Shown: piece by piece, positions 6,821 through 56,167 of the stretch | Layout of the letters: each line of letters begins with the position of its first letter | How positions within the stretch are numbered: position 1 is the first letter of the stretch | IMG/VR virus record: IMGVR_UViG_3300046463_000520 | Span: 34,470-98,469 of that record | From: a virus | Reading direction: 5' to 3' (one strand) | Length of the DNA: 64,000 nt | Position numbers and translations under genes: made by a program | Notes under the pieces: model-generated | Database searches by the model: none | The model's input: only the letters and a program-made list of their open reading frames with translations | What the model was told of the DNA's origin: nothing

Positions 6821-9538
6821 ATGGACTACTTCGCCTCCCTCTTTCGCGCCGCGCACGCGGGCGCTTACGGCATGAACGCGCTGCCGGAACCGACGCGCGC
6901 GCAGAAAGACGCGGGCGACTACGCGAAGGGCCGCATTGACTGGCGCGGCCTGACCATCGCCATCGAGAACCCGCGCGGCTCGCTGCGCCGCTGGCACGCC
7001 GACGACGGCACGAGCGGCGAGAACCTTCAATTGGCGCACTACGGCTATTTCGAAGGCATCGACGGCGCGGACGGCGACGAAATGGATTGCTACGTCGGAC
7101 CCTACCCGGAAGGCGACCGGGTTTTCGTCGTGAATCAGTTCGTGCGCGGCGCGTTTGACGAACACAAGGTCATGGTCGGATTCGTGGACGAGCGCACCGC
7201 GCGCGCCGCGTATCTCTCGAACTTCAAACCGGGCTGGCCCGGCCTGCAAAGCATCGTGGCCTGCACTGCCGGGCAATTTATCGAATGGGCGCGCAACGGC
7301 GATCACACTGCGCCGCTCACGCCGGAACAACTCTCCAACGGGAAAGACATGGAAAAGGTACTTTGGGATAGCGCGGAACTGCCGCAACCGCGCGGCGCGA
7401 GCCTCGCGCAAGTGCTGTATGCGATTCGCGCGCACGACGGCGCGGACGGGCTGTGTTTCGACCCGCTGACCGCCGCCGACATTCTCGAAGACTCCGACGG
7501 CGTTTTGGCGATGGACGCGCTTGTCACGGTCTATCGCAAGCTCGAATTTCAAATGAACGTGCTGCGCAAGCTGCTCGACCGTGTGGGCGGCGCGCTCACC
7601 GTGTCGGCGCTTCAGATTACCGACCCGTTCAAGCGGTCCGGCACGACGAACGTCGCGGCGATTTTCGAATTGAGCGACGGTCAAACCGTGTCGATTTTCT
7701 TCCACAATCCCGACGTCACGCCGCAGAAAATCATGCCGGGCGACGAACTCGTGTCGTGGAAATGGGTGCTCAACAAGAAAGACATTACGCTCGTCGTCGC
7801 ACCGGAACGCGGTCGCGATCTGAACGTGCGCAATGTCGCCGCGCGCGTCATGCAACTGGCATCGAAGAATTCCGCCCGTTTCCAGACGGCGAACGGCAAG
7901 CGCGCCGCAACGATGGAAGCGATTGCCTCGCTGAAGACCGAATTCGAGACGAAGACCGAAACACTCAATGGCCTTCTGACCGAAATCACGGAACTGGAAG
8001 CGAAGGTCGCGGCCCTGCCGCCGAAGGTCGAGCCGGTCATCGAGCCTGTCATCGACCCCGCGCCTGTCGAGCCGGTTGAGCCGGTCGTGGAACCCGTTGT
8101 CGAGCCGGTCATCGAGCCGCTTCCGACCGCCGAAGACCCGGATACCTTCGACCCGACCACGGCGGACAACTACGCCAAAATCGCGGGCGACATGGCGAAG
8201 CTGGAGTTTTATCAGGACACGCTCGACGCGATGTTCCAAAGCCGCGTCATCGACATTCGCAACGCCCTGCGCGAACTCGGATGGGAAGGCGAGAAGTATC
8301 AAGCGCTGTCGAAAAACGGCTACACGGCCTTCTTCAAGTTCGAGCGTGTCGGCGCGGGCGCGAACGTCATCGGCCTCGCCATCGGTCTGGAAGGCTTGCG
8401 CATGACCCCGATTCAAGACGACCTGACGCGCACGCCGCTCGAACTCGCTGCCGCCGTCGATGCGCTCGCGCCCGCGCCGGTCGTGGAACCTGTTGTCGAG
8501 CCGGTCATCGAGCCGGTTGCGCCGCACAAGTCAACGCTGATTCTCGCCGCGCTCGTCGCTCAATTCGGCTGGCGCGAAACGGAAAGCCCGCTGTTTCTGC
8601 AAAAGGACGTCGGCGGCGGCGAGCAAGGCGAAACGAACCCGGAAGGCGCGCGGATTGTGAATGCGCGCTTTGATGACACGTCGCGCTACATCGAACTGCA
8701 ATCGGGCTTTGCAACCGTGTTCGATATGGACACGCGCGACGGCGGCGATGCGCAAGCTGTTGCGGCGACGTTCAATGCGCGCGTCGCGGCATGGGCCGAT
8801 AGCACGGCCATTGCGCCGACGCCGATCCCGGAACCGACCCCGGAACCGGTCGCGCCGCAAGTGCCGGACAACGTTCGCAAGCGCGTACAGATTGCGCTCG
8901 ATACGCTGAAGGACATTCGCGAGTCGCTCGACAACGCCGTGACGCTCGAAGCGAAGGTCGGCGAGTCGGGCCGCTATCAGGCGGATACGCTCAACAATCG
9001 CCGGGCGGAAATCGACCGCTCGCAGGCGACGCTGGCGACGTTCCGCGAGACGGCGGCAAAGCTCGGCATCGACGCCGATGCGTTCATTGCATCGCTTGGC
9101 GGTGAGCCGGACCTGACGCCTAGCGCGCAAGCCGCCGACTGGCTTGCGGGCGAAGCTGAACGCACGCGCATCGCCGCCGAAGCGGAAGCCGCACGCCTCG
9201 AAGCGGAACGTGTCGCCGCCGAACAAGCCGCGAACGAAGCCGCCGCGCGCATCGCCGAAGCGGAAGAAGCCGCCCGCCGCGAAGCCGAAGAAAAGACCGC
9301 GCGCGAAGCTGCCGAAGCGGAAGCTGCCGCCGCTGCGTCGCGCGTCGCCGACGAACTCGCCTTCGTTGCGCGCGCCGCTGCCGGGCAGGAAGACTTTATG
9401 GTTAAGGACGTGACCGACCGCCTCGCAGAAATCGCGAAGACCGCTGAAGCCGGTACGGAACTCGCTGGCCTGCTCGCGCAAGCGAAGACCGCCGCGAAGA
9501 ACGCATTCATTGCGGCATTCAAGGCGAAGGTGGGCTAA
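6821..9538 (+). CDS. Polyvalent protein with N-terminal pyrophosphatase-like (InPase) domain
   Basis: A 905-aa protein. Residues about 20-165 match the pyrophosphatase-like domain of phage and plasmid polyvalent proteins: a W-R-G-L-x-I-A-I-E-N-P-x-G-S start, then H-Y-G-Y-F-E-G-I-D-G-A-D-G-D-E-M-D-C-Y-V-G-P with clustered acidic residues. The middle holds Pro-rich linkers repeating E-P-V-V/I-E-P (about 405-430 and 545-570) between two related 60-aa segments. The last 150 residues are an Ala/Glu/Arg coiled coil. It heads a late-motif unit and abuts the next gene (TAATG). Polyvalent proteins are thought to be delivered with the DNA; here that is inferred. Confidence 0.7.
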   Translation: MDYFASLFRAAHAGAYGMNALPEPTRAQKDAGDYAKGRIDWRGLTIAIENPRGSLRRWHADDGTSGENLQLAHYGYFEGIDGADGDEMDCYVGPYPEGDRVFVVNQFVRGAFDEHKVMVGFVDERTARAAYLSNFKPGWPGLQSIVACTAGQFIEWARNGDHTAPLTPEQLSNGKDMEKVLWDSAELPQPRGASLAQVLYAIRAHDGADGLCFDPLTAADILEDSDGVLAMDALVTVYRKLEFQMNVLRKLLDRVGGALTVSALQITDPFKRSGTTNVAAIFELSDGQTVSIFFHNPDVTPQKIMPGDELVSWKWVLNKKDITLVVAPERGRDLNVRNVAARVMQLASKNSARFQTANGKRAATMEAIASLKTEFETKTETLNGLLTEITELEAKVAALPPKVEPVIEPVIDPAPVEPVEPVVEPVVEPVIEPLPTAEDPDTFDPTTADNYAKIAGDMAKLEFYQDTLDAMFQSRVIDIRNALRELGWEGEKYQALSKNGYTAFFKFERVGAGANVIGLAIGLEGLRMTPIQDDLTRTPLELAAAVDALAPAPVVEPVVEPVIEPVAPHKSTLILAALVAQFGWRETESPLFLQKDVGGGEQGETNPEGARIVNARFDDTSRYIELQSGFATVFDMDTRDGGDAQAVAATFNARVAAWADSTAIAPTPIPEPTPEPVAPQVPDNVRKRVQIALDTLKDIRESLDNAVTLEAKVGESGRYQADTLNNRRAEIDRSQATLATFRETAAKLGIDADAFIASLGGEPDLTPSAQAADWLAGEAERTRIAAEAEAARLEAERVAAEQAANEAAARIAEAEEAARREAEEKTAREAAEAEAAAAASRVADELAFVARAAAGQEDFMVKDVTDRLAEIAKTAEAGTELAGLLAQAKTAAKNAFIAAFKAKVG

Positions 9539-11418
9539 TGCAACTCGCCGACGATGTATTTGCGATCATCGGCGAAGGCGCGGCGCTTCTGGCCGCGCTG
9601 GACGAAAACTCCGAATCGTTCTTCGATAGCCTCACGCGCCTGCGTGAAATCCTCGCGATGCTTGGCGAAAGTGCGCCCGCCGCCGCGCCCGCTGCGCCCG
9701 CGCTGACCTTCTCGCTCGCGGACAAGGCCGGTTCCGCGAAGTCGCTCGCCGCCTACTTCGATGCCGGGTTCGATATGCCCGAAATCGAACAGGTATATGA
9801 GGCACAAACGGTCGCGGACTTGGCGCGACTCGCGGACGACGAAGCCCTGCGCATCAAGGCGCGCAATTGGGATGAAATCTCGCGCTCGAAGTACCGCGCC
9901 AACGACGACGGGACGAAGCAAGCCGCCTATGAACACCTGAAGGCGCGCGGCATTTCCGGCAAGCTCGATATCCCGGTCATGCGCTCGAAGGTGAGCGACG
10001 GCGAAAAGATTCTCGCCGAAAGCATCGCGCAGAACCCGGAATACCTCGCGGTCAAAGCGCAGATTCAGAAGGAATACGACGAGCGCGGCACGCGCCTGCG
10101 CGAACTCCTTCACATTGCTGACGGCAGGACTGGCGCGAGCGAAGCCGAAATGCAAGCCGCCGCCGCCGAATATCACGCGCTTCAGAAGGACGGTCTGGTT
10201 GACCGCATGAACAAGCTGAACACGGATACGTGGAACAAGGTCATCGCCGACCGCGCCGAACGCCACGCCGCCCTGTTCCGCGCCGACGGCGAACAGATTG
10301 TCTCGACGCTGCTCGATTCATCGAGCGTGAGCAACGAAAGCGCGCTCGCGTGGGCGAAATCGCAGGTCGTGGACGATGACGCCAAGGCGAAGCTCAAGCG
10401 GCAGAAATACCCGCTCGACAAGTTCTATCAGGACATGGCGGACTTCTACCGGCTGACGGGCGGCAAGGCTTCGGCAATCCGCTTTATGGCGGGCGGCAAG
10501 CGCGCGAACGCGGGCGGCATCGAAACCGTGACCGGCGAGAAGTACATCAATCTCGACACGAGTTTCACGAAAGAAACGCTGTGGCATGAACTTGCGCACC
10601 ATCTGGAAAACGACCCGCTCGCGAAAGCGGCGGCGAACGGGTTCCTGCTCAAGCGGCGCGAAAGCGACAAGGCGTATTCGCTGCGTTCGCTCACCGGCAG
10701 CAAGTTCTACGGTCCGACGGAAATCGCGTGGAAGGACTCTTTCACGAACCCTTACGTCGGGCGCATCTATCGGGACGGCGCGACCGAAGTCTTCTCGATG
10801 GGCCTGCAATACCTGTCGGACCCGGCGAAGGCCGCATGGTTTGCCGGGAAAGACCCGGAAATGTTCGACCTTGTAACGGGCTATGTCGGCAATCCGCTGT
10901 CGCCCGCCATGCGCGCGAAGCTCACCATGCACTCAGGCGTCGTTGACGAGAAGGTGGGCGCGCAGCAAGCCGCCGCGAACGAGTACCCGACCGCGCTCGC
11001 TTGGTTCGCGAACCGCGCCGAACTCACCGCCGACGACTGGTTCGATACGCTCGACCGCGAAAGCGAGCTATACGACAAGCTGCGGCGGCTTTTCTCCTAT
11101 GAAGCAAAGGGGCAGACGCTTACCTATGTCGGCGCGGCAAATCCGTACCGCGTCTTCACCGGCACGATGGCAAAGACCGGCAGCAAGCGACTCGTCAAAA
11201 ATGGCTATCTGATTGTCGATATCACGGACGACAGGCGCTTCTACAACCTGACGCACGCGCAAACGCACGCGGGACTTGAAACGGCCCGCGCCATCGTCGG
11301 ACTCGCGCGCCTGACGAGCGAGACGCCATCGAAGGTCATCGCGCACTTCTTCACCGACTCGCGCAGTCAGACCGCAGAACAGAAAGTCGTTAGCTACTGG
11401 AAGGCACTCAACGAATGA
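9538..11418 (+). CDS. Polyvalent protein with zinc metallopeptidase-like core
   Basis: A 626-aa protein, coupled at both ends (TAATG, ATGA). The N-terminus (1-45) has F-A-I-I-G-E-G-A...S-F-F-D-S-L-T-R-L-R-E-I-L-A, a module repeated in the next protein. Residues 346-358 contain W-H-E-L-A-H-H, an HExxH zincin motif with H350, E351 and H354, which suggests a metallopeptidase. The last 90 residues are a separate small domain. In polyvalent proteins such peptidases may process co-injected partners or host targets; no substrate can be read from sequence. Confidence 0.65.
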   Translation: MQLADDVFAIIGEGAALLAALDENSESFFDSLTRLREILAMLGESAPAAAPAAPALTFSLADKAGSAKSLAAYFDAGFDMPEIEQVYEAQTVADLARLADDEALRIKARNWDEISRSKYRANDDGTKQAAYEHLKARGISGKLDIPVMRSKVSDGEKILAESIAQNPEYLAVKAQIQKEYDERGTRLRELLHIADGRTGASEAEMQAAAAEYHALQKDGLVDRMNKLNTDTWNKVIADRAERHAALFRADGEQIVSTLLDSSSVSNESALAWAKSQVVDDDAKAKLKRQKYPLDKFYQDMADFYRLTGGKASAIRFMAGGKRANAGGIETVTGEKYINLDTSFTKETLWHELAHHLENDPLAKAAANGFLLKRRESDKAYSLRSLTGSKFYGPTEIAWKDSFTNPYVGRIYRDGATEVFSMGLQYLSDPAKAAWFAGKDPEMFDLVTGYVGNPLSPAMRAKLTMHSGVVDEKVGAQQAAANEYPTALAWFANRAELTADDWFDTLDRESELYDKLRRLFSYEAKGQTLTYVGAANPYRVFTGTMAKTGSKRLVKNGYLIVDITDDRRFYNLTHAQTHAGLETARAIVGLARLTSETPSKVIAHFFTDSRSQTAEQKVVSYWKALNE

Positions 11419-12938
11419 TTGCAACGACCTACACCATCGGCACGCCTGCGGGCGTGTTTCAAGCCAATTGGGACGACGACGAAGATATCGCCGTCACCTA
11501 TACCGGCGACGAAGCCGCCATCCGGTTTTTCCGGGCGTATCTCGACCTTGCCGCGCCGACCGCGCGCGGCGGCGCGCTCGTTCGTTTCGATGCGCTCGAA
11601 CCGGAAGACTTGGGATTCATCGCAGTGGAAAACGCGCCCGTCTTCGTGGTCGATCCGCTGGAACAATTGGAACCCGACGAAGACCCCGAAGACACTGAGG
11701 AACCCATGTCGCTACTGCTCGATTCCGCCGACGCCGACACGTTCGCCCTGATTGGCGAAGGTGCTCAACTGCTCGCGGGCCTGAATGAAGACGCCGAATC
11801 GTTCTTCGATGACCTGTCGCGCCTGCGCGAAATCATCGCGGCGCTTGGCGCGGACGCCGCGCCGGTCGCGCCCGCCGTGGACGTCGGCGGCAAGGTGTTC
11901 GCCAACGAGCCGCAGCATTACGCCGACAACGAAATGGGCACGCGCCGCTATCGCGTCATGGGCGGCAAGCTCACGCCGAACACGCCCGCCGCGCGCCGCT
12001 ATCTCGAATATCCGGTCGTCGGCTCGAACGCTGACTATGTGGCGCAGAATGCCCGGCTCGAACGCAAGGGCGACACGTTCCAACTCACTTACGACCTAGA
12101 CAGGCCGTTCCCGACGACCGTCGAAGTCGAAGGCGACCCGACGCCCGAATCGCTCGACTATCAAGCTGGTTTCAATGCGGGCATGTCCGCAGCAAAGCCG
12201 AAGCTCACGGACGCGCTGATTCGAAAGAACACGGACCAATGGGTCGAAGGCTACCGCGCCGCCGTGCGCGACCTGAGCGAATTCCCCGAAATGGCCGCGC
12301 GCGACCGCGAAGAAATCCTGTCGTATCTCGCATCGCTCGCGCATGTCATCGAGCCGGAACCCGTCATCGAACCCGCGCCGGTCGAGCCTGTCATTGAACC
12401 CGCGCCGCCCGCCCCTACCCCGGAACCTACCCCTGTGAAAGTGGCCTTCGCTGAATACCTGTTGCCGTCGCAACGGACCATCAAGACCCTGCGCGAAATC
12501 GACATTTACCGCGTGCTCGTCGCCGCGCCCGAAGAACACCGCGCCGCCTTCGCGCAGTGGATCATCGAAGCCCGCCCCGACTTGGCGGACGAAGTGCAGC
12601 ATGTCATGCGCGCGGAATGGCCCGACGACGCGCCGGGCGACCCCGCCCTGCCGACGGAAGACCGCACCGCGACCGTCACTGACCCGCTGCCGGAAGACGG
12701 CGCAGCGGTCCCGCCTGCGCTTGGCGAAGTGACCGAATCGACGCCGGAACGCGACGCGGATATGGCTTTCCTGCGCGCGGTGACGGCGGGCGAAATCGAC
12801 ATGTGGGAGAACGACCCCGCCGACCGCATCGAAGCGATTGTCGGCGCGTATGAGACGGACGAAGCGGTGCTCGCGCTCTCGCGCGAAGCCATCGACGCCT
12901 ATACGAATTTCATGTCGAAAGCGCTGCAAAACGCCTAA
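11415..12938 (+). CDS. Polyvalent-type modular protein
   Basis: A 507-aa acidic protein overlapping the preceding stop (ATGA). Residues 1-95 form a small beta domain and an acidic linker. From M98 (possible internal start at 11706) comes F-A-L-I-G-E-G-A-Q-L-L-A...S-F-F-D-D-L-S-R-L-R-E-I-I-A, the module shared with the preceding protein. Next is a domain with G-G-K-L-T-P-N-T-P-A-A-R-R-Y and W-V-E-G-Y-R-A-A, an E-P-V-I-E-P linker (about 313-335), and two small helical domains. No catalytic motif is visible; it may be an adaptor or packaging protein. Confidence 0.55.
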   Translation: MIATTYTIGTPAGVFQANWDDDEDIAVTYTGDEAAIRFFRAYLDLAAPTARGGALVRFDALEPEDLGFIAVENAPVFVVDPLEQLEPDEDPEDTEEPMSLLLDSADADTFALIGEGAQLLAGLNEDAESFFDDLSRLREIIAALGADAAPVAPAVDVGGKVFANEPQHYADNEMGTRRYRVMGGKLTPNTPAARRYLEYPVVGSNADYVAQNARLERKGDTFQLTYDLDRPFPTTVEVEGDPTPESLDYQAGFNAGMSAAKPKLTDALIRKNTDQWVEGYRAAVRDLSEFPEMAARDREEILSYLASLAHVIEPEPVIEPAPVEPVIEPAPPAPTPEPTPVKVAFAEYLLPSQRTIKTLREIDIYRVLVAAPEEHRAAFAQWIIEARPDLADEVQHVMRAEWPDDAPGDPALPTEDRTATVTDPLPEDGAAVPPALGEVTESTPERDADMAFLRAVTAGEIDMWENDPADRIEAIVGAYETDEAVLALSREAIDAYTNFMSKALQNA

Positions 12939-12967
12939 GCGGACGGGGCAAAAGGCCCCGCCAAGCA

Positions 12968-12978
12968 TAGGAAAACGC
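12968..12978 (+). promoter_or_regulatory. Late promoter-type motif TAGGAAAACGC, copy 2
   Basis: Perfect 11-bp copy, 76 bp before the DarB-like ATG and just after a GGGGC/GCCCC hairpin (12945-12959) that closes the preceding unit without a T-run. Confidence 0.6.
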
Positions 12979-13038
12979 CGGGCGGATTGAGCAAAACCGC
13001 ACTCGACAATCAGAGTGCGGCTAACTCAACCTCCCGGC
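12977..13038 (+). other. Long structured leader of the DarB-like mRNA
   Basis: Nearly the whole leader can fold. Outer arms GCCGGG (12977-12982) and CCCGGC (13033-13038) extend inward through GG-TTGAG/CTCAACC with small bulges. An inner perfect stem CCGCACTC (12997-13004) and GAGTGCGG (13013-13020) closes an 8-base loop. The fold ends 5 bp before the ATG, so it could control ribosome access or mRNA life. Its 5' end overlaps the promoter-type motif by two bases. Confidence 0.55.
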
Positions 13039-13043
13039 GATAA

Positions 13044-16000
13044 ATGACCACTCTTATTCTCGATGACGCCTCCAATGGAATGGCGTCAGACCTTGCGCGG
13101 CTGAAGCTCGCACGCGAAGGCAAGACGCTCCTTCAAGAGCGCGAATCCCTCACCGCGAGCGCGGCGGACACGATCCGCAAGCTGAAAATCGGCAAGCGCA
13201 TTCGCGAGATTGTCGAAGCCTTGGGCCTGCGCCCTGCCGCGAAGAAGCCGGACGCCGCGCCTGTCGCGGTGCGCACGGAACCGACCGGCGAGTTTTACCC
13301 CGACGAGGGTAAGCGCACGACCGGACAACGCCAGAAGGCGAACGACGCCGCTATCGCGCTCATGCGCGAGATTCAGGCATCGGGCCGCGCCGTGACCGAC
13401 GAAGACCGCGCGATCCTCGCGAAGTATTCCGGCAACGGCGGCGGGCTTGTGGGCGCGGACGGCAAGACCGGAAGCCCGCACGAATACTACACGCCGAAGG
13501 AAGTCGCGGGCGCGATGTGGAACCTGCTGGCCGAACTCGGCTTCAATGGCGGCTCCGTGCTCGATCCGTCGTCGGGCACCGGTATTTTCACTTCGATGCG
13601 CCCGAAATCGGCAGTCATGTCGCAAGTGGAACTCGATCAGACGTCGGGCACCATCAACGGACTCGTCAACAACGGCCCGACGGTCACGACCGCCGTATCG
13701 CCCTTCGAAGCGTTCGCCAACGACACGCCCGACGAGATTTATGACGCGGTTATCACCAACGTTCCGTTCGGCGACCGCACCAAGCGCGGCGGCAATGAAA
13801 AGCTCGACTCGCGCTTTCAGGATGAATCGCTCGAAGGCTACTTCGTGCAGCGCGCGCTTCAGAAGGTCAAGCCGAACGGCTTGGCGGCGTTCATCGTGCC
13901 GAAGGCGGTCGTGTCCGGCTTGGGTTCCCGCGACGTCAAGCTGCGCACGAACTGTTCGCTCATGGCCGAATTCGTCGGCGCGTACCGCCTGCCGAATTCC
14001 ATCTTTACGACCGCCGCCGCCGACGTGACGACGGACCTGATTGTGTTCCGCAAGTTCTCGCGCGAGACGCGCCGCAAGGTCGAAGAACTCGAAGCGCAAA
14101 GCCCGGCCACGCTGAAGGACGCCAACATTCTGTGGGAGCCGTTCGTGTCCGGCGCGTTCTTCAAGACCGTGGGCCGCAAGTACATTCTCGGCGAAGAAGG
14201 CACGACCAAGGGCAAATACGGCGAAGTCGCCGCCGTCATCAATACCGATTCGATCAGCAACATCGTCAAGCTGATTAAGCGCTTCCCTGACTCCCATATC
14301 AATTGGGAACTGCTCGACATGGTTCCGACCGCGCCGATCACGTACACGGACGGCGACACGATCAATAAGGACGGCGCGACGCTCGAAATGCGCGACGGCG
14401 AATGGGTCGTGCTCGACTCCGCGCAGGCCGCAAGCAAGACGGTGCTCGACTTGGCAGACAAGCTCTCGCGCCCGCTCGCGGCGGTCAATTCGCGCGTCAC
14501 GTTCGCGCAGGCAGGCGAATACGTCGATGCGATGCAGAACGCCGGGCGCTTTTGGGACGTCGGCGCATGGCTGACGGGCACGGTTAAGACCGTGGCGACG
14601 CTCGCAGAGTCGGAGCGTGAAACGTGGTGGCAAGCGATCACCGCAGGCATGGCCGTGCAGGAATTGCTGTCGGAAGCCGATTCCGTCGAGCCGCAGAACT
14701 ACGTCACCGCATACCCGGAACTGGCCGCGCAACTCGCGAAGGTCGAGCGCTACGCCACGCGCACCGTCGGCAAGGCCGCAAAGCTCGTGAAGGACGGCCT
14801 GCTGTCGATTCAGAACGCACGGCGCAAGGGCGAATTCACCGCGCTCTGGAAGGGCGAAATCCTCGCCAACGTGCAGGACCGGATTCTGTCGCCGACGCAG
14901 ATTTATGAGAAGGCGCGCTATGAGAACGAAGACGAAACCGGCTTCGTGTCTGTCTCGAAGCTGCGCGAAGCCATGTCGGACTTCGACCCGCTCGAAGACG
15001 ACGACTGGTGTATGGGCGCGGACGGCGAAACCGTCATGCACGCGAACGACTATTACACCGGCTCGTATGGCCGCTTCCTGAAGCAAGCGGAAGCCGACCT
15101 TGCCGCCGCGACGGACCCGCGCGTGCGCGCGAAAATCGCCCGGCAAATGGACCGTGCGAAGGAACGTATCAGCGTGGTGGACGTCGCCGACATGACGTTC
15201 AATCTGTTCACGCCGCACGTCACGATGGCGCAAAAGCTCGAATTCCTGAAGACCTATGTGTCGGTTGATATTTTCATCAACGACAAGGGCGAATTCGATA
15301 TCAAGCAGTCGAATCCGGGTAAGTACGCCAGTGCCGAAGAAATGGCCGCGTACAAAGCCATGCAGCGCTTCGTGAAGTCGTATCTGAAGAACCAGACGAT
15401 TACGACGATGACGAAGCAAGCGGACGCCGAAGCGAACCCCGCTGCGGAAGCCGCTTTGATGCGCCGGATTAAGGACATTACGGACCGCGCGAAGGCACAG
15501 TTCGATTCGTGGGCGCGCGCCAACGACGAGATTCAGGCGTCGCTGCATCAAAAGCTGAACGACCCGGAAAACCTGAAGTTCATCGAAGTGCCGGACGGCA
15601 CGCCCTTGGACATTCCGAATCTGAACGTCGAAGACTTCGAGCCGCACGCCTACCAGTACGCCGCCTGCCGCCGCTACGCCCGTCATTTCGGCGGCGTGCT
15701 CGGCTTCGATGTGGGCCTCGGCAAGACGTTGACGGCGCTCGCCGCGACGCAGTACGCGCAGTCTATCGGCGTGAAGAAGAAGACCATTTTCGTGGTCCCG
15801 AATGCCACGCTCACGAACTGGCAGAAGGAAGCGGGCAAGGCGTATCTGAACACGGACGACTGTCTGTTCGTCGGCGTCATCACGGACAAAAAGGGCAAAA
15901 AGAAGGTCGATAACAACCAAGTCAAAATCGACTTGAACACGATCCGCGAAAACCGTCATGCGAAGATTTTCATGACGATTGAAGCATTCAAGCAGATTCC

Positions 16001-19000
16001 CCTGCGCGAAGAAACGCTCGACGCCTATGTCGAATACCTCGCGCACCATGACGACGCCTATTCGGTCGAGAACGACAAGAGCAAGACGGAAAGCATCAAG
16101 CAGGACTCCCTGCTCGCGGAAGCGAAAGACTTGGGTTCGAAATCGGGCGCGCTGCCCTACTTCGAAGACTTGGGCGTGGATTCGCTCGTGCTGGACGAAG
16201 CGCACAACTACAAAAACTCGAAAGTCACGAGCGCGGAATTTACCGGCGCGAAATACCTGTCGGACCCGCAGAAGTCGCAACGCGGCATGGACATGCAGGC
16301 GAAGGCGTGGTTTGTCCGTGGTCTGTCGGACCGTGGCGATGGCGTGGTTTCGCTGACCGCGACGCCCGTCACGAACTCGCCGCTCGAAGTCTATTCGATG
16401 CTCACGCTCGCGCTTGGCGAAGAAGAAGTCAACAACATGTACGGCGTGACCGGCGCGGACACGTTCATGGCGGCGGCGTGCGATATCGAAGAACGCGAAG
16501 AAGAAAACATCGTCGGCAAATTCACCGCGACGCGCACCTTTACCGGCTTGCAGAACGCGGGCCTGCTGCGCCGCCTGCTCCAGACGTCGTGCCTGATTAA
16601 GACGGCGGAAGACGTGAAGGCGGACGGCGTGGATATCCGCGTGCCGCAGGCCGAAGAAATCTCGACGGCGGTCGATATCGGGCCGGACAACTTCGCGACG
16701 CTCATCGCCTACAAAAACGAGTACATGGAAGCGGTCAAGCTCGTGAAGGCGGGCGGCGGCGGACCGGACGACAAGCTCACGGCGTCACCGTTCAACCTGA
16801 TTCGAAAGATGACGAAGGTCATCAACGACCCGGAAATGGACAAGGGCGTGTTCGTCTTCAAGTTCTCGGACGACGAGAAAGAAGGCGCGCTCAAGGCCCT
16901 GCTCGCGTTCAACAAGAAGAAGGTCAAGGAAATCCGCGACACGCTCGACCCGATGCTCGGCAAGGAATTCGTCACGGAAAAGAGTGTGCGTGACACGGTA
17001 ACGGGCGATTTCGTCGTCCAATACAACACGACCATTCAGGCGTTCGCCGCGACCGATGCGAACGGCGACAACGAAATCCGCCTGCCGTCCACGGAATACG
17101 AGACGCAGGAAGCGCTTATCAAGCTGCTCGAAGCCGAAGGCGTGAAGCCGCGCGTGAAAATCTCGCCGAAGCTCGCCGCCGTCATCGCGAACGTGAAGAA
17201 AGAAGCCGCGTACCCGCGTCATATGGGCCACGCCAAGCAAATCATTTTCTGCGACGAACTCGGCCTGCATCCGAAAATCCGGCTCGCGCTCGCGCAGGAA
17301 GTGGGCGTTCCGCTGTCGAAAATCAAGATCGTCAATGCGGTCGCGGTTGACGTCGCGGGTATGCAGGACGTGCAGGACGGTTTCAACGCCGACGGCGAAG
17401 AAAACCGCTACGAATACGTCATCGCCAACAAAAAGGCCGAAGTCGGTATCAACCTGCAAAAAGGCTGTCAGGCTATCCACCATATGACGATTGGCTGGAC
17501 GCCGGACTCGACGCACCAACGCAACGGGCGCGGCGTGCGGCAGGGCAACACGGTCGAGAAGGTCATGGTGTATCACTACGATGCGAACGGCACGTTCGAC
17601 GCCTACAAGCGCAAAATCGTGGATATCAAAGCCGACTGGATTGGCGCGCTCATGTCGGGCGACTCGCAGAAAATCAAGATCGAAGGCGACATGTCCGCCG
17701 CCGATTACGAACTGCTCGCGAACGCCGTGGGCGACGCTGAAGCGATGGAAACGGCAAACAGGGCCATCGCCGACCGCGCCAAGCGCGAAAAGATTCAGGC
17801 CGCGCGCGTGCAGCAAATCCAGTATGTGCGCACCATCGAAGGCGCGAACGTATGGCTCAACAAGTTCGGCGTGACCGGCGAAGACGAGACGAGCGGCTTC
17901 AATGCTTGGGTCAACTCGAAAATCGCGAGCATCCGCGCGCAGGTTTCCATCATCGCCGATATCAAGACGCGGCAGGATGAAACCGAAAGCGACTTGATGC
18001 GCGCGCGGCTGGCGAAGAAGTACGCCGAAGAACGCCCGAAGCTCGACGCGGCCCTGCTCGTCATCGGCGGACTCGCAACGCCGGGCAAAATCCCCGCCGA
18101 ACGCACGTATCGCTCCACGCTCACGGACGAAGACCGCGCATCCGCCGCCTATGCGAACTGGAAGAAGGAACTGACGTTGCGCACGAACATGCGCGACGAC
18201 TCGCGCCGCGCCTTCCTTCAGCGCTCGGAAGACGGCTATACGGTCGATTCGCTCGACGCGCACGCGCGCGGCGAAGCGGCGGTCGTCATGGGTACGCTGG
18301 TTCGTATCGGCTCGTTTGTCGAGAACGGCGACGCGCTGCTGGTTGTGCGCAGCGGCAAGAATCGTCAGGCGGGCAACCTGTACGGTTACAACCCGGCTGA
18401 CCAAAGCGAAATCGAACTGCTGAAAATCGCCAAGCCGGTATTCACGGACAAGGGTTCCGCGCGCTGGCGCTCGCTGGTTGAACAGGCCGTGCGCATGGAC
18501 GAAGCGACCATTGCCGATAGCGATTTCGGCGGCGCGTATGGTGCGAGCGATCCGCGCCTGTACATGTCGATGGTCGAAGACGTGCGCGACGCGATCAGCG
18601 TGCCGGTTCCGTCGGCCCCGCTCTCGAAGTCGTCGTTCTCGTTCAAGCGCCCGTACTTCCCTATCGTGCTCGATGACTTGACCGGCGAAAGCGGCGGCGC
18701 GCTGGCGAAGCGCATCCGTGCGGAACAAATCGACCTGCTCGACTTGGCGAAGGGCAACAAGTGGAACGTCGTGCCGCGCGACACGCGCACCATCGGGCCG
18801 TCGCTCGATATCAACGTGCGCACGCAATCCGAAGCGATCCGCGAGTATGCGGTGGCGCACAATCTGCGCGCGACCGAAGACGACCTGTACGCGATCAATA
18901 GCGGGCTTGGCACGCGCAACGTGGTCGATCAGCTTGGACTGCGCGCGCTGTTCTTCAAGTCGCTGCCCGAAGGCGTCGCGGCAAGCAAGACGCCGGACGA

Positions 19001-19880
19001 ACTCGACGTGTGGGCGCTCGCGTGGTTCCGCGCGCAACTCGACTGGCTCGAAGTGTCGGACCTTTCGACGGTGCTTGGCGGGTACATGTCGCAATACCTG
19101 CGCACGCAGGCAAAGATTGACGACGGCACGGAACGATGGGTCAAGCTGATTGAACCGCCGACCTACACTGTGAAGGACGCGGCGCTGGCGGCGCTCGAAA
19201 CGGCGATCAAGGGCGGTTTTCTGGTCGATGAAATCATCGGCGAGAACGGCGGCAACGCCTACCCGATGCCGTATCTGCCGGGCGGTTTCCTGTCGAGCGG
19301 CGCGGGCCGGAAAGTCGCCGAACTGCTGTGCGAACAGGTCGGCGAATATATCGAACTGAAGGTCGGCGCGGACAAGGTGCGCTCGCTCAACGGGTACGGC
19401 TCGAACATTCGCCTGTATTACGACAATTGGGGCGATGCCGTGACGCTGGTTGCAAGCGTGTTCTCGGACCGCTGGAAATCGCTGGTTCAGTGGGCGCAGT
19501 CGGTTGAGAAGGTGCGCGCAGCGGACAAGGCAGGCACGGACGTGCCGGGCATTCTCGCCGCCCTGCGCCGGATGCCGGGCGTGCTGTCGGCGGACGTCGG
19601 CACGGTCGAAGCGCGCGAGAAGCGTTACGGCTCGAAGGGGTTCTATACCTACGTGCCGGGCACGTATATCCTGCTCGGCATTTCGCGCGGCTCGTCGCTG
19701 CACGATAAGGTCGCGACGAAGGGCGACGCGGGCTTGCATGGCCGCACGTTCGACCGCGAAACGAACTGCTTCCGCATCACCATCGCCGACGGCGAGAAGT
19801 GGAGCGACGGCGTAGCGGTCGCATCGGTCGATAGTCTGTTCGCGCACATCGGGCAAAACATCGCCGACTATAAGCTGTAA
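13044..19880 (+). CDS. DarB-like antirestriction protein: DNA methylase plus SNF2-type helicase
   Basis: A 2278-aa protein, close to the size of phage P1 DarB, which is packaged in the virion and protects DNA from type I restriction. Residues 10-65 repeat the E-G-x-x-L-L...I-R-E-I-V-E-A-L-G module of the two preceding proteins. Residues about 150-380 form an adenine-methylase fold, with V-L-D-P-S-S-G-T-G-I-F (D174) and N-V-P-F (N239). Residues about 870-1560 form a helicase: G-L-G-K-T (K894), D-E-A-H (1051-1054), and Q-R-N-G-R-G-V-R-Q near 1500. The C-terminal 700 residues are unassigned. Methylase motif IV is N-V-P-F rather than the usual N-P-P-F/Y. It has its own late motif and structured leader. 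Confidence 0.8.
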   Translation: MTTLILDDASNGMASDLARLKLAREGKTLLQERESLTASAADTIRKLKIGKRIREIVEALGLRPAAKKPDAAPVAVRTEPTGEFYPDEGKRTTGQRQKANDAAIALMREIQASGRAVTDEDRAILAKYSGNGGGLVGADGKTGSPHEYYTPKEVAGAMWNLLAELGFNGGSVLDPSSGTGIFTSMRPKSAVMSQVELDQTSGTINGLVNNGPTVTTAVSPFEAFANDTPDEIYDAVITNVPFGDRTKRGGNEKLDSRFQDESLEGYFVQRALQKVKPNGLAAFIVPKAVVSGLGSRDVKLRTNCSLMAEFVGAYRLPNSIFTTAAADVTTDLIVFRKFSRETRRKVEELEAQSPATLKDANILWEPFVSGAFFKTVGRKYILGEEGTTKGKYGEVAAVINTDSISNIVKLIKRFPDSHINWELLDMVPTAPITYTDGDTINKDGATLEMRDGEWVVLDSAQAASKTVLDLADKLSRPLAAVNSRVTFAQAGEYVDAMQNAGRFWDVGAWLTGTVKTVATLAESERETWWQAITAGMAVQELLSEADSVEPQNYVTAYPELAAQLAKVERYATRTVGKAAKLVKDGLLSIQNARRKGEFTALWKGEILANVQDRILSPTQIYEKARYENEDETGFVSVSKLREAMSDFDPLEDDDWCMGADGETVMHANDYYTGSYGRFLKQAEADLAAATDPRVRAKIARQMDRAKERISVVDVADMTFNLFTPHVTMAQKLEFLKTYVSVDIFINDKGEFDIKQSNPGKYASAEEMAAYKAMQRFVKSYLKNQTITTMTKQADAEANPAAEAALMRRIKDITDRAKAQFDSWARANDEIQASLHQKLNDPENLKFIEVPDGTPLDIPNLNVEDFEPHAYQYAACRRYARHFGGVLGFDVGLGKTLTALAATQYAQSIGVKKKTIFVVPNATLTNWQKEAGKAYLNTDDCLFVGVITDKKGKKKVDNNQVKIDLNTIRENRHAKIFMTIEAFKQIPLREETLDAYVEYLAHHDDAYSVENDKSKTESIKQDSLLAEAKDLGSKSGALPYFEDLGVDSLVLDEAHNYKNSKVTSAEFTGAKYLSDPQKSQRGMDMQAKAWFVRGLSDRGDGVVSLTATPVTNSPLEVYSMLTLALGEEEVNNMYGVTGADTFMAAACDIEEREEENIVGKFTATRTFTGLQNAGLLRRLLQTSCLIKTAEDVKADGVDIRVPQAEEISTAVDIGPDNFATLIAYKNEYMEAVKLVKAGGGGPDDKLTASPFNLIRKMTKVINDPEMDKGVFVFKFSDDEKEGALKALLAFNKKKVKEIRDTLDPMLGKEFVTEKSVRDTVTGDFVVQYNTTIQAFAATDANGDNEIRLPSTEYETQEALIKLLEAEGVKPRVKISPKLAAVIANVKKEAAYPRHMGHAKQIIFCDELGLHPKIRLALAQEVGVPLSKIKIVNAVAVDVAGMQDVQDGFNADGEENRYEYVIANKKAEVGINLQKGCQAIHHMTIGWTPDSTHQRNGRGVRQGNTVEKVMVYHYDANGTFDAYKRKIVDIKADWIGALMSGDSQKIKIEGDMSAADYELLANAVGDAEAMETANRAIADRAKREKIQAARVQQIQYVRTIEGANVWLNKFGVTGEDETSGFNAWVNSKIASIRAQVSIIADIKTRQDETESDLMRARLAKKYAEERPKLDAALLVIGGLATPGKIPAERTYRSTLTDEDRASAAYANWKKELTLRTNMRDDSRRAFLQRSEDGYTVDSLDAHARGEAAVVMGTLVRIGSFVENGDALLVVRSGKNRQAGNLYGYNPADQSEIELLKIAKPVFTDKGSARWRSLVEQAVRMDEATIADSDFGGAYGASDPRLYMSMVEDVRDAISVPVPSAPLSKSSFSFKRPYFPIVLDDLTGESGGALAKRIRAEQIDLLDLAKGNKWNVVPRDTRTIGPSLDINVRTQSEAIREYAVAHNLRATEDDLYAINSGLGTRNVVDQLGLRALFFKSLPEGVAASKTPDELDVWALAWFRAQLDWLEVSDLSTVLGGYMSQYLRTQAKIDDGTERWVKLIEPPTYTVKDAALAALETAIKGGFLVDEIIGENGGNAYPMPYLPGGFLSSGAGRKVAELLCEQVGEYIELKVGADKVRSLNGYGSNIRLYYDNWGDAVTLVASVFSDRWKSLVQWAQSVEKVRAADKAGTDVPGILAALRRMPGVLSADVGTVEAREKRYGSKGFYTYVPGTYILLGISRGSSLHDKVATKGDAGLHGRTFDRETNCFRITIADGEKWSDGVAVASVDSLFAHIGQNIADYKL

Positions 19881-23060: not shown

Positions 23061-23077
23061 CGTCCTAGGCCCTGATT

Positions 23078-23103
23078 GCCCCGCTCGCGCGGGGCTTTTT
23101 TTT
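23078..23103 (+). terminator. Strong rho-independent terminator
   Basis: GCCCCGC (23078-23084) and GCGGGGC (23089-23095) arms with a 4-base loop, then eight T. It separates the early block from the late structural unit that begins 13 bp later with the TAGGAAAACGC motif. Confidence 0.9.
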
Positions 23104-23115
23104 GGCCGCACGGCA

Positions 23116-23126
23116 TAGGAAAACGC
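23116..23126 (+). promoter_or_regulatory. Late promoter-type motif TAGGAAAACGC, copy 3
   Basis: Perfect 11-bp copy, 71 bp before the portal ATG and 13 bp after a strong terminator. That insulation makes a promoter role for the motif region especially likely here. Confidence 0.7.
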
Positions 23127-23186
23127 GCGGGCGTCTTGCGGCGCGCGGCGGCGACACTGGACGCTGTTCTCATATCGTCCAACGCC

Positions 23187-24860
23187 ATGCCGACTCCGAC
23201 CGATAGCAAGCCATCGGGCTTCGCCAAAATCAAAGCCCTGTTCGCCTCCAAGGGCGTCAACGCCGCTGAGATTGGCGACGCCGAACAACAAGACGCGCTC
23301 ACCGACGGCCTGACTATCTCGATGCTGCTTGGCGCGGGCCGCTCGACCGCGCGCAACCGGCTTCAGATTTATCAGAAGCGCATCGAAATGATTGGCGACC
23401 CGATTATCTCGACCGCGCTGCGCCTGCACGTCACCGCTGCCTTGGGCGGGCACGAGACGAGCGGCGACACGGTATTCATCGAAGCGACCGGCGACGCGAA
23501 GAAGGACAAAAACAAAAAGCGCATCGCCGAAGAAATCTCGAAAGACTTGGCTCCGATTTTCAACCGCATCGCCTACACCGTGGCCTTCAACGGCGCGGGC
23601 TTCGGCGACGCCTACGGGCGCGTCTATACGGCGGGCAAGCTCGGGGTCGTGGACGTCTACTGTGACGAGCTAGTGCATCCGTCGATGATTACCGCCTACG
23701 AGCGCGGCAACACGACGATGGGCTTCGTCGCGGCGAGCGGCCCGAAATCGACGGTCAAGCTGAATCTGTTCCAGATGGCGCGTTTGAAAATGCCGCGCAT
23801 GATTTACGTGCCGCAGGTCCGCGCAATGGAGAAGGCCATTCGGACCGCGCTCGATACCGACGATATCAACGAACTGCCGTTCATGCCGTCCCTTGTCGGC
23901 GGCTCGTTTCTCGATGCCGCAGAAGGCCCGTATGACGCCCTTCAAGCGGCGATGGTCGGTCTAGTCGGGCAGCGCGTGCTTGATTCGATTGACGAGTCGA
24001 TGATGACGGTCAACATGGACGGCATGACCAAAGAGCAACGCGGCTCGTTCATGGCGAACATGAAGTCGATTCTGTCGGCGTCCAAGCAACGCGCGGAACA
24101 GGCGATCAAGCAGGGCCGTCCGGTACTCGAACGCATCTATCACCTGATTCCGACTTGGGGCGACAAGCAAATGACCGCCCTGAATGGCTCGCTCGCGACG
24201 GGCGGCGGGCGCGGGCAGTCGGGCACTTTGTCTATCGAAGACGTCTTGTTCTACGCGAAGCTGCTCTCTGGCGCGCTTGGCGTGGACTTGTCGATGCTCG
24301 GCTTCTCCGAACTGCTGTCGGGCGGCTTGGGGGATGGCGGGTTCTTCCGCACGAGCGCGCAGGCGGCGGAACGCTCGCGCCTGATTCGCGTGGGCCTGTC
24401 GGAGTTTTTCAATCACATCATCGACGTCCATACGCAATTCAAGTATGGGCTTGTGTTCCCGCCTGACGAACGTCCGTGGGAAGTCAACTTCTACGGCACG
24501 ATTTCCGCGCTCGAAAGCGAGAAGCAGAAGACCCGCACGGAAGCGCAGAACACGGGCGCGCTGCTGCTGCAATCGCTCGAAAGCATCAAAAACTTGGGAA
24601 TGAAAGACCCGAAGGCCATCGAAGAAATCCTCGCGAAAATCATGCTGCTGGACGAAGACCAAGCCGCGCTGATTACGAAGGCGATCATCGAAGCGATCAA
24701 GTCGGGCGAAGAACAGGACGCGGAAGGCGGCGGCGGGTTTGGCGGCGGCGGTGACATGGGCGGCGGGCCGGTCGGCAACGCGGGCGGCACGCCTGCGCCT
24801 GCCCTGCCGAAAGCCAAGCCTAAGAAGAAGGAAGCCGCCGCAGACGAGGAAACCGCCTAA
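23187..24860 (+). CDS. Portal protein
   Basis: A 557-aa protein taken from ATG at 23187. I-Y-Q-K-R-I-E-M-I-G-D-P-I-I-S-T-A-L-R-L-H-V opens the core, as in myoviral portals that start with a paired-conformation helix. A long middle with wing and stem-like segments follows, and a Gly/Asp-rich, Lys-rich tail (about 510-557) ends it. The portal forms the 12-mer gate for DNA at one capsid vertex and joins the tail. It heads a late unit; the next gene abuts (TAATG). The assignment rests on length, layout and position. Confidence 0.65.
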   Translation: MPTPTDSKPSGFAKIKALFASKGVNAAEIGDAEQQDALTDGLTISMLLGAGRSTARNRLQIYQKRIEMIGDPIISTALRLHVTAALGGHETSGDTVFIEATGDAKKDKNKKRIAEEISKDLAPIFNRIAYTVAFNGAGFGDAYGRVYTAGKLGVVDVYCDELVHPSMITAYERGNTTMGFVAASGPKSTVKLNLFQMARLKMPRMIYVPQVRAMEKAIRTALDTDDINELPFMPSLVGGSFLDAAEGPYDALQAAMVGLVGQRVLDSIDESMMTVNMDGMTKEQRGSFMANMKSILSASKQRAEQAIKQGRPVLERIYHLIPTWGDKQMTALNGSLATGGGRGQSGTLSIEDVLFYAKLLSGALGVDLSMLGFSELLSGGLGDGGFFRTSAQAAERSRLIRVGLSEFFNHIIDVHTQFKYGLVFPPDERPWEVNFYGTISALESEKQKTRTEAQNTGALLLQSLESIKNLGMKDPKAIEEILAKIMLLDEDQAALITKAIIEAIKSGEEQDAEGGGGFGGGGDMGGGPVGNAGGTPAPALPKAKPKKKEAAADEETA

Positions 24861-32216: not shown

Positions 32217-33860
32217 ATGAACGGAACTCAAAACCGTAAGTACACGCTGTCCGATCAGCGCGAAGTCGAAAACTTCGTGCATGGCGTGGCGAACGCCGAA
32301 GGCAAGCCGGGCATGTTGCTCGACTCCGCCGCCGCCGCTGACGCGGGCATGGCCGCTGCGAAAGAATCGGGCAACCTGCCGACCGCGCTGAACGAACTGC
32401 TTGGCGTGACGAGCGTCGAAGAACAGAAGATCGTCAAGGCGATTTTCGACGGCGTGAATGTGTTCCAGCGCGAGCACGGTTTCATGCCGTCGGGCGACTT
32501 GCTGCTGACCGCCATCGACCAAGCCAAGTCGATTTACGACTCGGCAACGAACAACCATCACGATCAGATTTCGCTCACGCCGAACGCGCCTATCGTCGCG
32601 ATTCTTGGCGCGCTCGCTGAAGCCTGCCCGTTCGCCGGTTATTTGGCTGCGGACAGGGGTTCGAACGAAGCACGCCTAATCATCGTGTCGCACCAAGCCG
32701 GTTCGAACTGGGGCGGCTACAAGCAAGGCAACTTGATGGACGGTATCGCGCAAGGCGAATCGTTCATGGGTTCCTCGCGCACGAAATCGCTGTCGGCACC
32801 GAACGACACGGCGAACTACAAGGTCACGTTCTACGACGGCGAAGACGGCAGCGGCGAAGTGCTGACGATGCTGCGCGGTCGCACCATCGTGTACGTCAAC
32901 GGCATGATTGCCGTGCAGGAAATCCAGAACGGTTCGAGCACGGCAGCAAGCGTGCCGCTCATGGGCGGATGCACCATCGGCGGCGTCGATTACGCGCTCA
33001 CCGGCACGGTCAAGCCCGCGTCGGGCGAAGTGGTCGTCACGCCGGGTTCCGCCCTGCCCGCTGGCACGGTCGTGACCATCGAAGTGGCCGTGGACTACGA
33101 AACGCGCCCGGAAAAGACGCCGAAGATGCAGGTTCAAGCGCAGGTGTTCCAACTGTTCGCGAACCCGTTCCGCGTCACGTACCAAGTCACGCCGGAAGCT
33201 CGTTCGCAGTTCTCGAACGAAGTCGGCGTCGATGCAGGCGCAGAAGCGATGATGGCCGTTCGTGGTCAGTATTCGATGGAACGTCATTACGACGCGCTGA
33301 AGAAGGCGAAGATGATTGGCGCATTCCAAGGCAAGTGGGAATACGACTTCGACTACGACAACCAGATTCAGCAAAAGACCCGCGCGCAAATCCTTCAGGA
33401 TTTCGCATCGGTGCTCGGCATGGCGTCGCAAGCGATGGCCGAAGCGACGGCTGACCACGGCATCACGCACATGTACGTCGGCAAGTTCGTGGCCGCACTG
33501 TTCCGCTCGCTCGACGCGACGCTGTTCCAGTCGTCGGGCCTCACGGACCGTCCGGGCATTTTCCGTGTCGGCAAGCTGTTCGGCGTGTACGAAGTCTATT
33601 ACTCGCCGAAGGTCGTCAACGAAGCCGCCGACGGTTCGACATCGGAAATCATCTGCGTGGGTCGTTCCACGCAGACGGCGCGCTGCCCGATCATCATGGG
33701 CGACGCCTCGGCTCCGATGTTCGAGCCGCTCGGCACGACGGAAACCCTCAAGACCGGCTACGGCTTCAACGCCCGTTCGTTCAACCGCGTCAACCCGCAC
33801 GCAATGTCGGCTGTCGGTTGCACGGTTATCACGGTGAAGAACCTGCAAAAAGCGGCGTAA
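32217..33860 (+). CDS. Major capsid protein
   Basis: A 547-aa protein with its own late motif, structured leader and strong terminator, the arrangement expected for the most abundant virion protein. A helical N-terminal 110 residues may act as a scaffold-like delta region. The later part alternates beta sheet and helices (Q-V-Q-A-Q-V-F-Q-L-F-A-N-P-F-R-V-T-Y-Q-V) and ends in strands with G-Y-G-F-N-A-R-S-F-N-R-V-N-P-H-A, as in large HK97-fold capsids of myoviruses. Position between spike and sheath genes agrees. No protease site was identified. Confidence 0.7.
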   Translation: MNGTQNRKYTLSDQREVENFVHGVANAEGKPGMLLDSAAAADAGMAAAKESGNLPTALNELLGVTSVEEQKIVKAIFDGVNVFQREHGFMPSGDLLLTAIDQAKSIYDSATNNHHDQISLTPNAPIVAILGALAEACPFAGYLAADRGSNEARLIIVSHQAGSNWGGYKQGNLMDGIAQGESFMGSSRTKSLSAPNDTANYKVTFYDGEDGSGEVLTMLRGRTIVYVNGMIAVQEIQNGSSTAASVPLMGGCTIGGVDYALTGTVKPASGEVVVTPGSALPAGTVVTIEVAVDYETRPEKTPKMQVQAQVFQLFANPFRVTYQVTPEARSQFSNEVGVDAGAEAMMAVRGQYSMERHYDALKKAKMIGAFQGKWEYDFDYDNQIQQKTRAQILQDFASVLGMASQAMAEATADHGITHMYVGKFVAALFRSLDATLFQSSGLTDRPGIFRVGKLFGVYEVYYSPKVVNEAADGSTSEIICVGRSTQTARCPIIMGDASAPMFEPLGTTETLKTGYGFNARSFNRVNPHAMSAVGCTVITVKNLQKAA

Positions 33861-55372: not shown

Positions 55373-55606
55373 ATGCAGGTTACAAACGACCGCCCGCTGC
55401 ACGAACGGCTGGCAGACCTTCAGGCCATCGGCCTGACGCAGAAGGAAATCGCTGAGTACCTTGGGGTGCGGCAACCGACAGTAAGCAACCTGCTGAAGCC
55501 GCTTGCTCCGGGGATGAAATCCCGCCGTTATTCGGCGGGCGTAATGGCAGGCGCGGCGCGCGCCGAAGCGGTGCATTCGGTGCTGCTCGCGCGGCTGGCA
55601 GCATAA
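55373..55606 (+). CDS. Cro-like small HTH regulator
   Basis: A 77-aa protein with L-A-D-L-Q-A-I-G-L-T-Q-K-E-I-A-E-Y-L-G-V-R-Q and P-T-V-S-N-L-L-K, a complete helix-turn-helix, followed by a basic, Ala-rich tail. Divergent from the S24 repressor, in the position of Cro. It likely represses the repressor gene and starts the lytic cascade that runs downstream. Confidence 0.75.
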   Translation: MQVTNDRPLHERLADLQAIGLTQKEIAEYLGVRQPTVSNLLKPLAPGMKSRRYSAGVMAGAARAEAVHSVLLARLAA

Positions 55607-55621
55607 GGTTAGGGACAGGCG

Positions 55622-56167
55622 ATGAAAGGTGTAACGCAGAAGGTCAAGCCGAAGAAGGCGAAGAAGCAATATGTGCGCAAGCCGAAGAACGGCATGGCCG
55701 CGCTCGATACCCTTGGTCGCCTGTCGTTCAATGCGGGCCTTGTCGAAGCGATGACGGCGGCGCTGCCCGACGAACACCGCGACAAGGTTGAGATTGGTTA
55801 CGGGATCAATCTCGACCGGCTCGTGAAGGGCAAGGCGAGCATGGATGACATTGAGGAACTCGGGTTCCTCGCGAACGTGACGGTCATCCTGTGCGAGACG
55901 CGCTTCGGCGGTTTCGGAAGCGAGCACGAGCAACTTGCGATTGCCGGGCAACTGGCGGTCGTCAATGCGTTCCGGCGTGGACTGAAGGGCGGAAACTTCG
56001 GCCTGTCCGGTCCGGAAATTCAGGCGGTGCGCGGCGTGTACGAACTGCACGTCGAACAAATGAGGGTATGCAGTCAAGCGCACCTGATTGCGGCAACAAC
56101 TGAAGTCGAGCGTCGCCAGAACATCGGCGAAGTCATCCGGCTTGTGCCGGTGAAGCAAGCGGCGTAG
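55622..56167 (+). CDS. Hypothetical early lytic protein
   Basis: A 181-aa protein with a very basic N-terminus (K-V-K-P-K-K-A-K-K-Q-Y-V-R-K-P-K) and a helical rest: G-I-N-L-D-R-L-V-K-G-K-A-S, then A-I-A-G-Q-L-A-V-V-N-A-F-R-R-G. It lies directly after the Cro-like gene. Phage lytic operons often carry a regulator of this size here; no family recognised. Confidence 0.6.
   Translation: MKGVTQKVKPKKAKKQYVRKPKNGMAALDTLGRLSFNAGLVEAMTAALPDEHRDKVEIGYGINLDRLVKGKASMDDIEELGFLANVTVILCETRFGGFGSEHEQLAIAGQLAVVNAFRRGLKGGNFGLSGPEIQAVRGVYELHVEQMRVCSQAHLIAATTEVERRQNIGEVIRLVPVKQAA

Follow-up and report, generated by a model that had tools for sequence, protein, structure and literature searches.

The virus record from which the analysed window of 64,000 nucleotides was taken spans 98,469 bases, and the gene cluster at positions 6821-19880 of the window is, on well-supported sequence grounds, the Dar (defence against restriction) locus of a P1-type phage (Table 1). 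Homologues of DarA, Hdf, DarB and Ulx and of the peptidase domain of DdrB are present, together with a P1-type major capsid protein, portal protein and prohead protease, the last (a homologue of P1 Pro, L128:10110-10535, E=6e-20) lying outside the window, about 4 kb upstream of it. The locus also has the features of polyvalent proteins, namely InPase with DarA_N, and methylase with helicase, in single polypeptides, with portal and tail genes adjoining; in this it resembles the large packaged phage proteins in which InPase, DarA_N, metallopeptidase, methylase and helicase domains have been described (PMC5512222). A contig of Paraburkholderia sp. C35 is closely related.

The first gene of the cluster encodes a DarA-like protein with Pfam InPase (2e-41) and DarA_N (5e-41) domains, which matches the P1 DarA structure 9ukm_I (E=5e-23) and scores 3e-25 against the NCBIfam DarA domain, a match that lies under that model's whole-protein cut-off. 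An earlier note on this DNA had ascribed a pyrophosphatase-like domain to this neighbour of the module-bearing proteins; the protein falls outside the set that carries the hairpin module described below. All four reading frames that the note dealt with lie where it had placed them. In a related locus (L010:1090-4941), the DarA-like protein has an N-terminal extension of about 600 residues consisting of repeated AGAxxxQGSTSPGAA units. The peptidase encoded next (gene 9538, named here by its first position) has no Pfam match, and is recognised by tblastn and alignment as kin to P1 and P7 DdrB and to a peptidase of Xanthomonas phage Rb1. The domains of the 507-aa protein that follows (gene 11415) were delimited with domain profiles, and its AlphaFold2 model is confident in those parts only. 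The 2278-aa protein matches the DarB-like family PHROG_11801 and, by tblastn, P1 DarB, with 30% identity over 46% of the query. Further downstream, an 873-aa protein (25709-28330) has transglycosylase, endolysin/chitinase-like and tape-measure-like matches.

The arrangement differs from that of P1 in that the DarA-like protein has gained an InPase domain, the 507-aa protein is an addition, and the DdrB-like protein lacks a ParB domain, the ParB half of P1 DdrB not being found in the window. The peptidase, the 507-aa protein and the methylase/helicase protein, which the earlier note had regarded as otherwise unrelated effectors, are instead parts of one anti-restriction system.

Table 1. Features of the Dar locus and of nearby head genes, in window coordinates; arrows mark predicted or known cuts, NTM is the hairpin module and CTM the C-terminal module
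Feature	Position	Strand	Remarks
DarA-like protein, 905 aa	6821..9538	+	InPase 27-157, DarA_N 230-351, CTM 844-896, hairpin absent
Predicted prohead-protease site LAMD↓ALV, DarA-like protein	7505..7525	+	aligns with P1 DarA LLE68↓AIS
CTM of DarA-like protein	9350..9508	+	residues 844-896; profile E=8e-10
DdrB-like zinc metallopeptidase, 626 aa (9538)	9538..11418	+	HELAHH, residues 350-355
Hairpin module (NTM), copy 1	9550..9678	+	residues 5-47, N-terminus of peptidase 9538
507-aa protein (11415)	11415..12938	+	beta domain 1-90, hairpin 105-147, recurring helical domain 340-401, CTM 447-500
Predicted prohead-protease site LLLD↓SAD	11712..11732	+	directly before hairpin copy 2
Hairpin module (NTM), copy 2	11727..11855	+	residues 105-147 of 507-aa protein
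CTM of 507-aa protein	12753..12914	+	residues 447-500; predicted three-helix unit, model pLDDT about 90
DarB homologue, 2278 aa	13044..19880	+	N6 adenine methylase 145-358, SNF2 helicase 877-1065 (Pfam)
Predicted prohead-protease-like site LILD↓DAS	13053..13073	+	before hairpin copy 3
Hairpin module (NTM), copy 3	13068..13226	+	residues 9-61 of DarB, divergent subtype
Ulx-like anti-restriction protein, 135 aa	19929..20336	+	PHROG_1629 E=1e-23
P1-type portal protein	23076..24860	+	PDB 9ums Prt E=4e-42; PHROG_1497
Hdf-like protein, 160 aa	31595..32077	+	profile of D6, JK004, Rb1 Hdf, E=1e-32
P1-type major capsid protein	32217..33860	+	PDB 9ukm_A Gp23 E=7e-19

At least three of the Dar proteins share a short module, predicted to be an amphipathic two-helix hairpin, that lacks enzyme features. 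Residues 6-50 of the peptidase and 108-152 of the 507-aa protein are 64% identical over 45 residues (pairwise BLASTP, E=1e-12), in agreement with the earlier note, which had proposed a module common to these two proteins and the 2278-aa protein. The DarB copy is divergent and is recognised by profile: by BLASTP, DarB matches the 507-aa protein with E=0.07 only, but when a 9-sequence DarB profile was compared with the profile of the 9538/11415 copies, the first 75 columns of DarB ranked top of 150 windows (E=1e-4; next separate window 0.016). The module had also been described as N-terminal, which is true of the peptidase and of DarB and not of the 507-aa protein, where the copy is internal (about residues 105-147), behind the 90-residue beta domain. 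AlphaFold2 predicts helices at residues 9-35 and 40-60 of DarB (pLDDT 91-94) and at 107-121 and 130-144 of the 507-aa protein (pLDDT 72-79), the flanking linkers of the latter being of low confidence. Within the peptidase family, conservation of the hairpin (0.67) is close to that of the catalytic domain (0.72), as compared to 0.28-0.42 in the linkers, its conserved positions including E, R and LG, and no reversed-protein decoy is matched at E<0.01; thus the similarity of the copies is greater than expected by chance. The hairpin has no consistent Pfam family, searches of the PDB by profile and by fold (Foldseek) returned generic helices only, and tblastn of GenBank phages with both module consensus sequences gave no match. 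The fold is generic while the sequence is strongly conserved, unlike the unconserved generic coiled coil against which the earlier note had set its proposal. Recent duplication of the module within the phage was considered and rejected, as the identity of the two copies is 0.50 within a phage and 0.47 between phages.

Direct scans of viral contigs with 9538 and 11415 as single queries yielded no relatives, and an alignment of DarB was required; searches guided by DarB and by the peptidase gathered about 120 loci. In 54 related loci the module is carried by DarB, peptidase or 11415-type proteins, and in 37 loci, including some fragments and distant ones, no hairpin was detected by these profiles. 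Two subtypes can be distinguished. The 9538/11415 subtype occurs in nine phages. Each has exactly two copies, borne by the peptidase and by the 11415-type protein respectively, and the whole records of these phages contain no others. The Paraburkholderia sp. C35 element has DarB and DarA-like homologues and lacks the 9538/11415 pair. The second subtype, defined by a profile of the DarB N-terminus, matches more than 40 DarBs as well as small free proteins the size of DdrA, and also the peptidases and 11415-type proteins of Nitrosomonas-type phages, with 0 reversed decoys at E<0.01. The two subtypes appear to be related, a link that consists of moderate profile scores (E about 1e-4) and one natural fusion: both occupy the same position on orthologous peptidases, the two subtype profiles align colinearly (E about 8e-5), and a DdrB-like ParB domain, a hairpin and DarB are joined in a single 2572-aa protein of locus L018 (8861-16579). 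The hairpin of this fusion is of the 9538/11415 type (E=4.5e-15) and stands in the place of the DarB N-terminus, with residue 5 of the 2278-aa DarB aligning with residue 381 of the L018 protein.

The earlier note had suggested a profile search of the module against phage proteins, and with the DarB-type copies such a search singles out the DdrA family, PHROG_1855. This family is matched by 15 of 20 DarB-type copies scanned singly (best E=2e-7); in the same scan of 38,880 phage families, no unrelated family is matched by more than three of the 20. The DarB hairpin of the phage studied here reaches E=0.005 against PHROG_1855, the N-terminus of D6 DdrA is an obvious hairpin copy that fits the hairpin profile, and when profiles of DdrA and of the hairpin are compared they match at 93.5% probability. 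As judged from these profile comparisons, the hairpin and the N-terminal half of P1 DdrA (residues 3-50) are homologous, the likeness extending over the first 45-50 residues. None of 18 members of the 9538/11415 type matches PHROG_1855 directly, and these copies are therefore linked to DdrA indirectly, by the DarB-type copies together with the fusion in L018. P1 virions contain DdrA (PMC9024508), and the view that the cluster encodes virion-type polyvalent proteins is sustained both by the P1-type Dar locus and by the homology of the module to the front half of that protein.

The DdrA of P1 is a free protein of 121 aa with a C-terminal half of its own, whereas the hairpin here is fused to the peptidase, the 507-aa protein and DarB. 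The ddrA gene of P1, D6, JK004 and Rb1 sits between darA and ddrB, in a neighbourhood like the present one. A search of the record with the hairpin profile found no ORF for a small, free DdrA-type protein with the DdrA C-terminal half, so the hairpin-bearing proteins of this phage are not DdrA and carry its hairpin. Across the loci, free DdrA and fused hairpins never occur together (0/6 versus 54/90; Fisher p=0.006, relatedness not corrected). In Rb1, an unannotated DdrA-like gene of 154 aa lies between the DarA-like and peptidase genes (L004:11092-11556; Rb1 55479-55943), and a second, likewise unannotated hairpin match is found near the terminase genes (record 7394-7543).

A further feature of the module is a motif in front of it that resembles a prohead-protease site. 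The P1 capsid protein is cleaved at MLE120↓S (PMC9024508), and the P1 DarA structure begins at residue 70 (PMC12810830), adjoining LLE68↓AIS; the protease rule is based on this one Edman site and this one structure start. The motif matches the P1 capsid protein site, LLE68↓A of P1 DarA and the C-terminal part of Pro, with the difference that the residue before the cut is E in P1 but D in this phage. A motif of this kind stands at the aligned position in each of 78 DarA_N proteins, with L, F, M, Y or I at P2, D (67) or E (11) at P1 and A, S or G at P1'. The N-terminal region of the capsid protein contains two LD/YD↓SA motifs (32313-32333 and 32529-32549), which are kept in the seven major capsid proteins aligned with it, and the C-terminal part of the Pro homologue (L128:9927-10940) has several LD↓AV and YD↓S motifs, as expected for self-cleavage. 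Before the hairpin, the motif is found in 34 of 44 non-redundant copies against a background of 7.7%, a difference whose significance is not to be taken literally because the pattern was tuned after inspection of the same data and allows D at P1' (LD↓D), which is absent among the reference sites. The propeptide of the capsid protein is unrelated to the hairpin. In the 11415 family, Met is frequent a few residues before the LD[SA][AV] motif (here 11712-11732) despite the variable linker; an internal translation start before the 11415-type hairpin is possible, but ribosome-binding sites are inconsistent.

In P1, DarA and Hdf are packed first and line the capsid, followed by DdrA, DdrB, DarB and Ulx, and the remaining Dar proteins are excluded when DarA or Hdf is missing (PMC12810830). 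The first 30 residues of P1 DarB are sufficient to carry a reporter into the head, truncations of the protein point to residues 6-10, and BLAST detected no common sequence among P1 Dar proteins (PMC9024508). Hairpins are present on none of the 78 DarA_N proteins, and the later-packaged class of Dar proteins does carry them. The hairpin profile is negative on P1 DarB residues 1-30, so the tie to the targeting experiment is one of position, both elements lying at the extreme N-terminus of DarB, and the N-termini of D6 DarB and DdrB and of P1 DdrA show weak similarity only (shuffle p 0.0025-0.01).

Because the hairpin corresponds to the front half of the P1 head protein DdrA, detached from the rest, it is a good candidate for a common head-entry label, and a packaging or delivery tag, as the earlier note had proposed, is what we infer as the best account of the DdrA homology, the placement on late Dar proteins, the protease-like site and the N-terminal targeting of P1 DarB. 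Probably, the module is the N-terminal hairpin of DdrA fused to cargo, serving Dar incorporation in trans in P1 and in cis in the present phage. The free DdrA of P1, of its nearest relatives D6 and JK004, and of Rb1 would then act as an adaptor that associates with the DarA-Hdf platform lining the inner face of the capsid, ahead of DdrB and DarB, whereas covalent attachment to the peptidase, the 507-aa protein and DarB would let each cargo bring its own docking tag to DarA-Hdf or the capsid, to be ejected later with the DNA. With a protease-like site before most copies, maturation would often leave the hairpin at a new N-terminus, and cleavage of the 507-aa protein would remove its beta domain. 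A wider reading, which is tentative and falls a little short of probable, is that the hairpin is portable: P1-type phages would use it for head incorporation, as a trans adaptor (DdrA) or a cis cargo tag, and it would often be exposed by the prohead protease, whose preference would have changed from E to D in step with its targets in the capsid protein, DarA and the protease itself. The system is a known one whose shared module had gone unrecognised, and no shared hairpin or targeting module was found in the main text of the polyvalent-protein paper (PMC5512222).

It is also conceivable, though unlikely, that the hairpin links the Dar proteins to one another and not to the head, through oligomerisation or complex assembly, whether inside the head or in the cell once the proteins have been ejected. 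A predicted amphipathic hairpin without enzyme features, present in several copies per phage that are all on proteins of one system, and whose Foldseek and profile matches are generic and include coiled coils and designed helical pairs, would suit such a role; mutual linking leaves unexplained, however, why a protease-like site precedes the hairpin and why its free form occurs in P1 virions, packed ahead of the putative partners.

Several internal proteins of phage T4 share a short N-terminal element, with a prohead-protease site, on packaged proteins. The T4 targeting sequence lies before the cut and is removed, whereas the hairpin lies after the predicted cut. An improbable T4-like alternative would place the true signal in the short peptide, 7 residues long in DarB, that precedes the protease-like site, leaving the hairpin to cap the mature N-terminus or aid passage through the tail. 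The conserved site-like motif and the P1 DarB truncations pointing to residues 6-10 (PMC9024508) are consistent with this arrangement, but the hairpin of the peptidase begins at residue 1-5 with nothing ahead of it, the leading peptides are variable where the hairpin is conserved, and DdrA has the hairpin without the site. That the similarity is only that of generic coiled coils or alanine-rich linkers, serving no particular function, is very hard to credit: the module is short, helical and compositionally simple, and unrelated PDB coiled coils match it at E of 0.02 or worse, but its conservation near that of a catalytic domain, the exact two-copy occurrence of the 9538/11415 subtype in nine phages, the lack of decoy matches and the selectivity for a single family among 38,880 all argue otherwise.

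The head-entry label favoured here bears on a question already raised for P1, where a common Dar capsid targeting signal was suspected and none was seen by BLAST (PMC9024508); several Dar proteins of the present phage share one hairpin. Together with its identity as half of DdrA and the exclusivity of free and fused forms, this offers a direct and cheap test of how Dar proteins are loaded into P1-type heads and of the otherwise unexplained role of DdrA. From the shared protease-like motif, cleavage can also be predicted at sites in many head proteins that are as yet uncharacterised.

A second module, the CTM, is common to the DarA-like protein, the 507-aa protein and about 75 other Dar-locus proteins, and is absent from DarB; 79 sequences of it were gathered across the related loci. 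Docking of the hairpin onto the CTM found no support, as several loci with hairpins have no detectable CTM, and the idea that the CTM corresponds to the C-terminus of P1 DarA found no direct support. The CTM nearly always lies within 13 residues of the C-terminus. The recurring helical domain of the 507-aa protein (residues 340-401; 12432-12617) is PHROG_20105-like, with the pattern RRIDVYRVL...RPDL...EEWP, and among relatives it shifts between 11415-type and DarA-like proteins.
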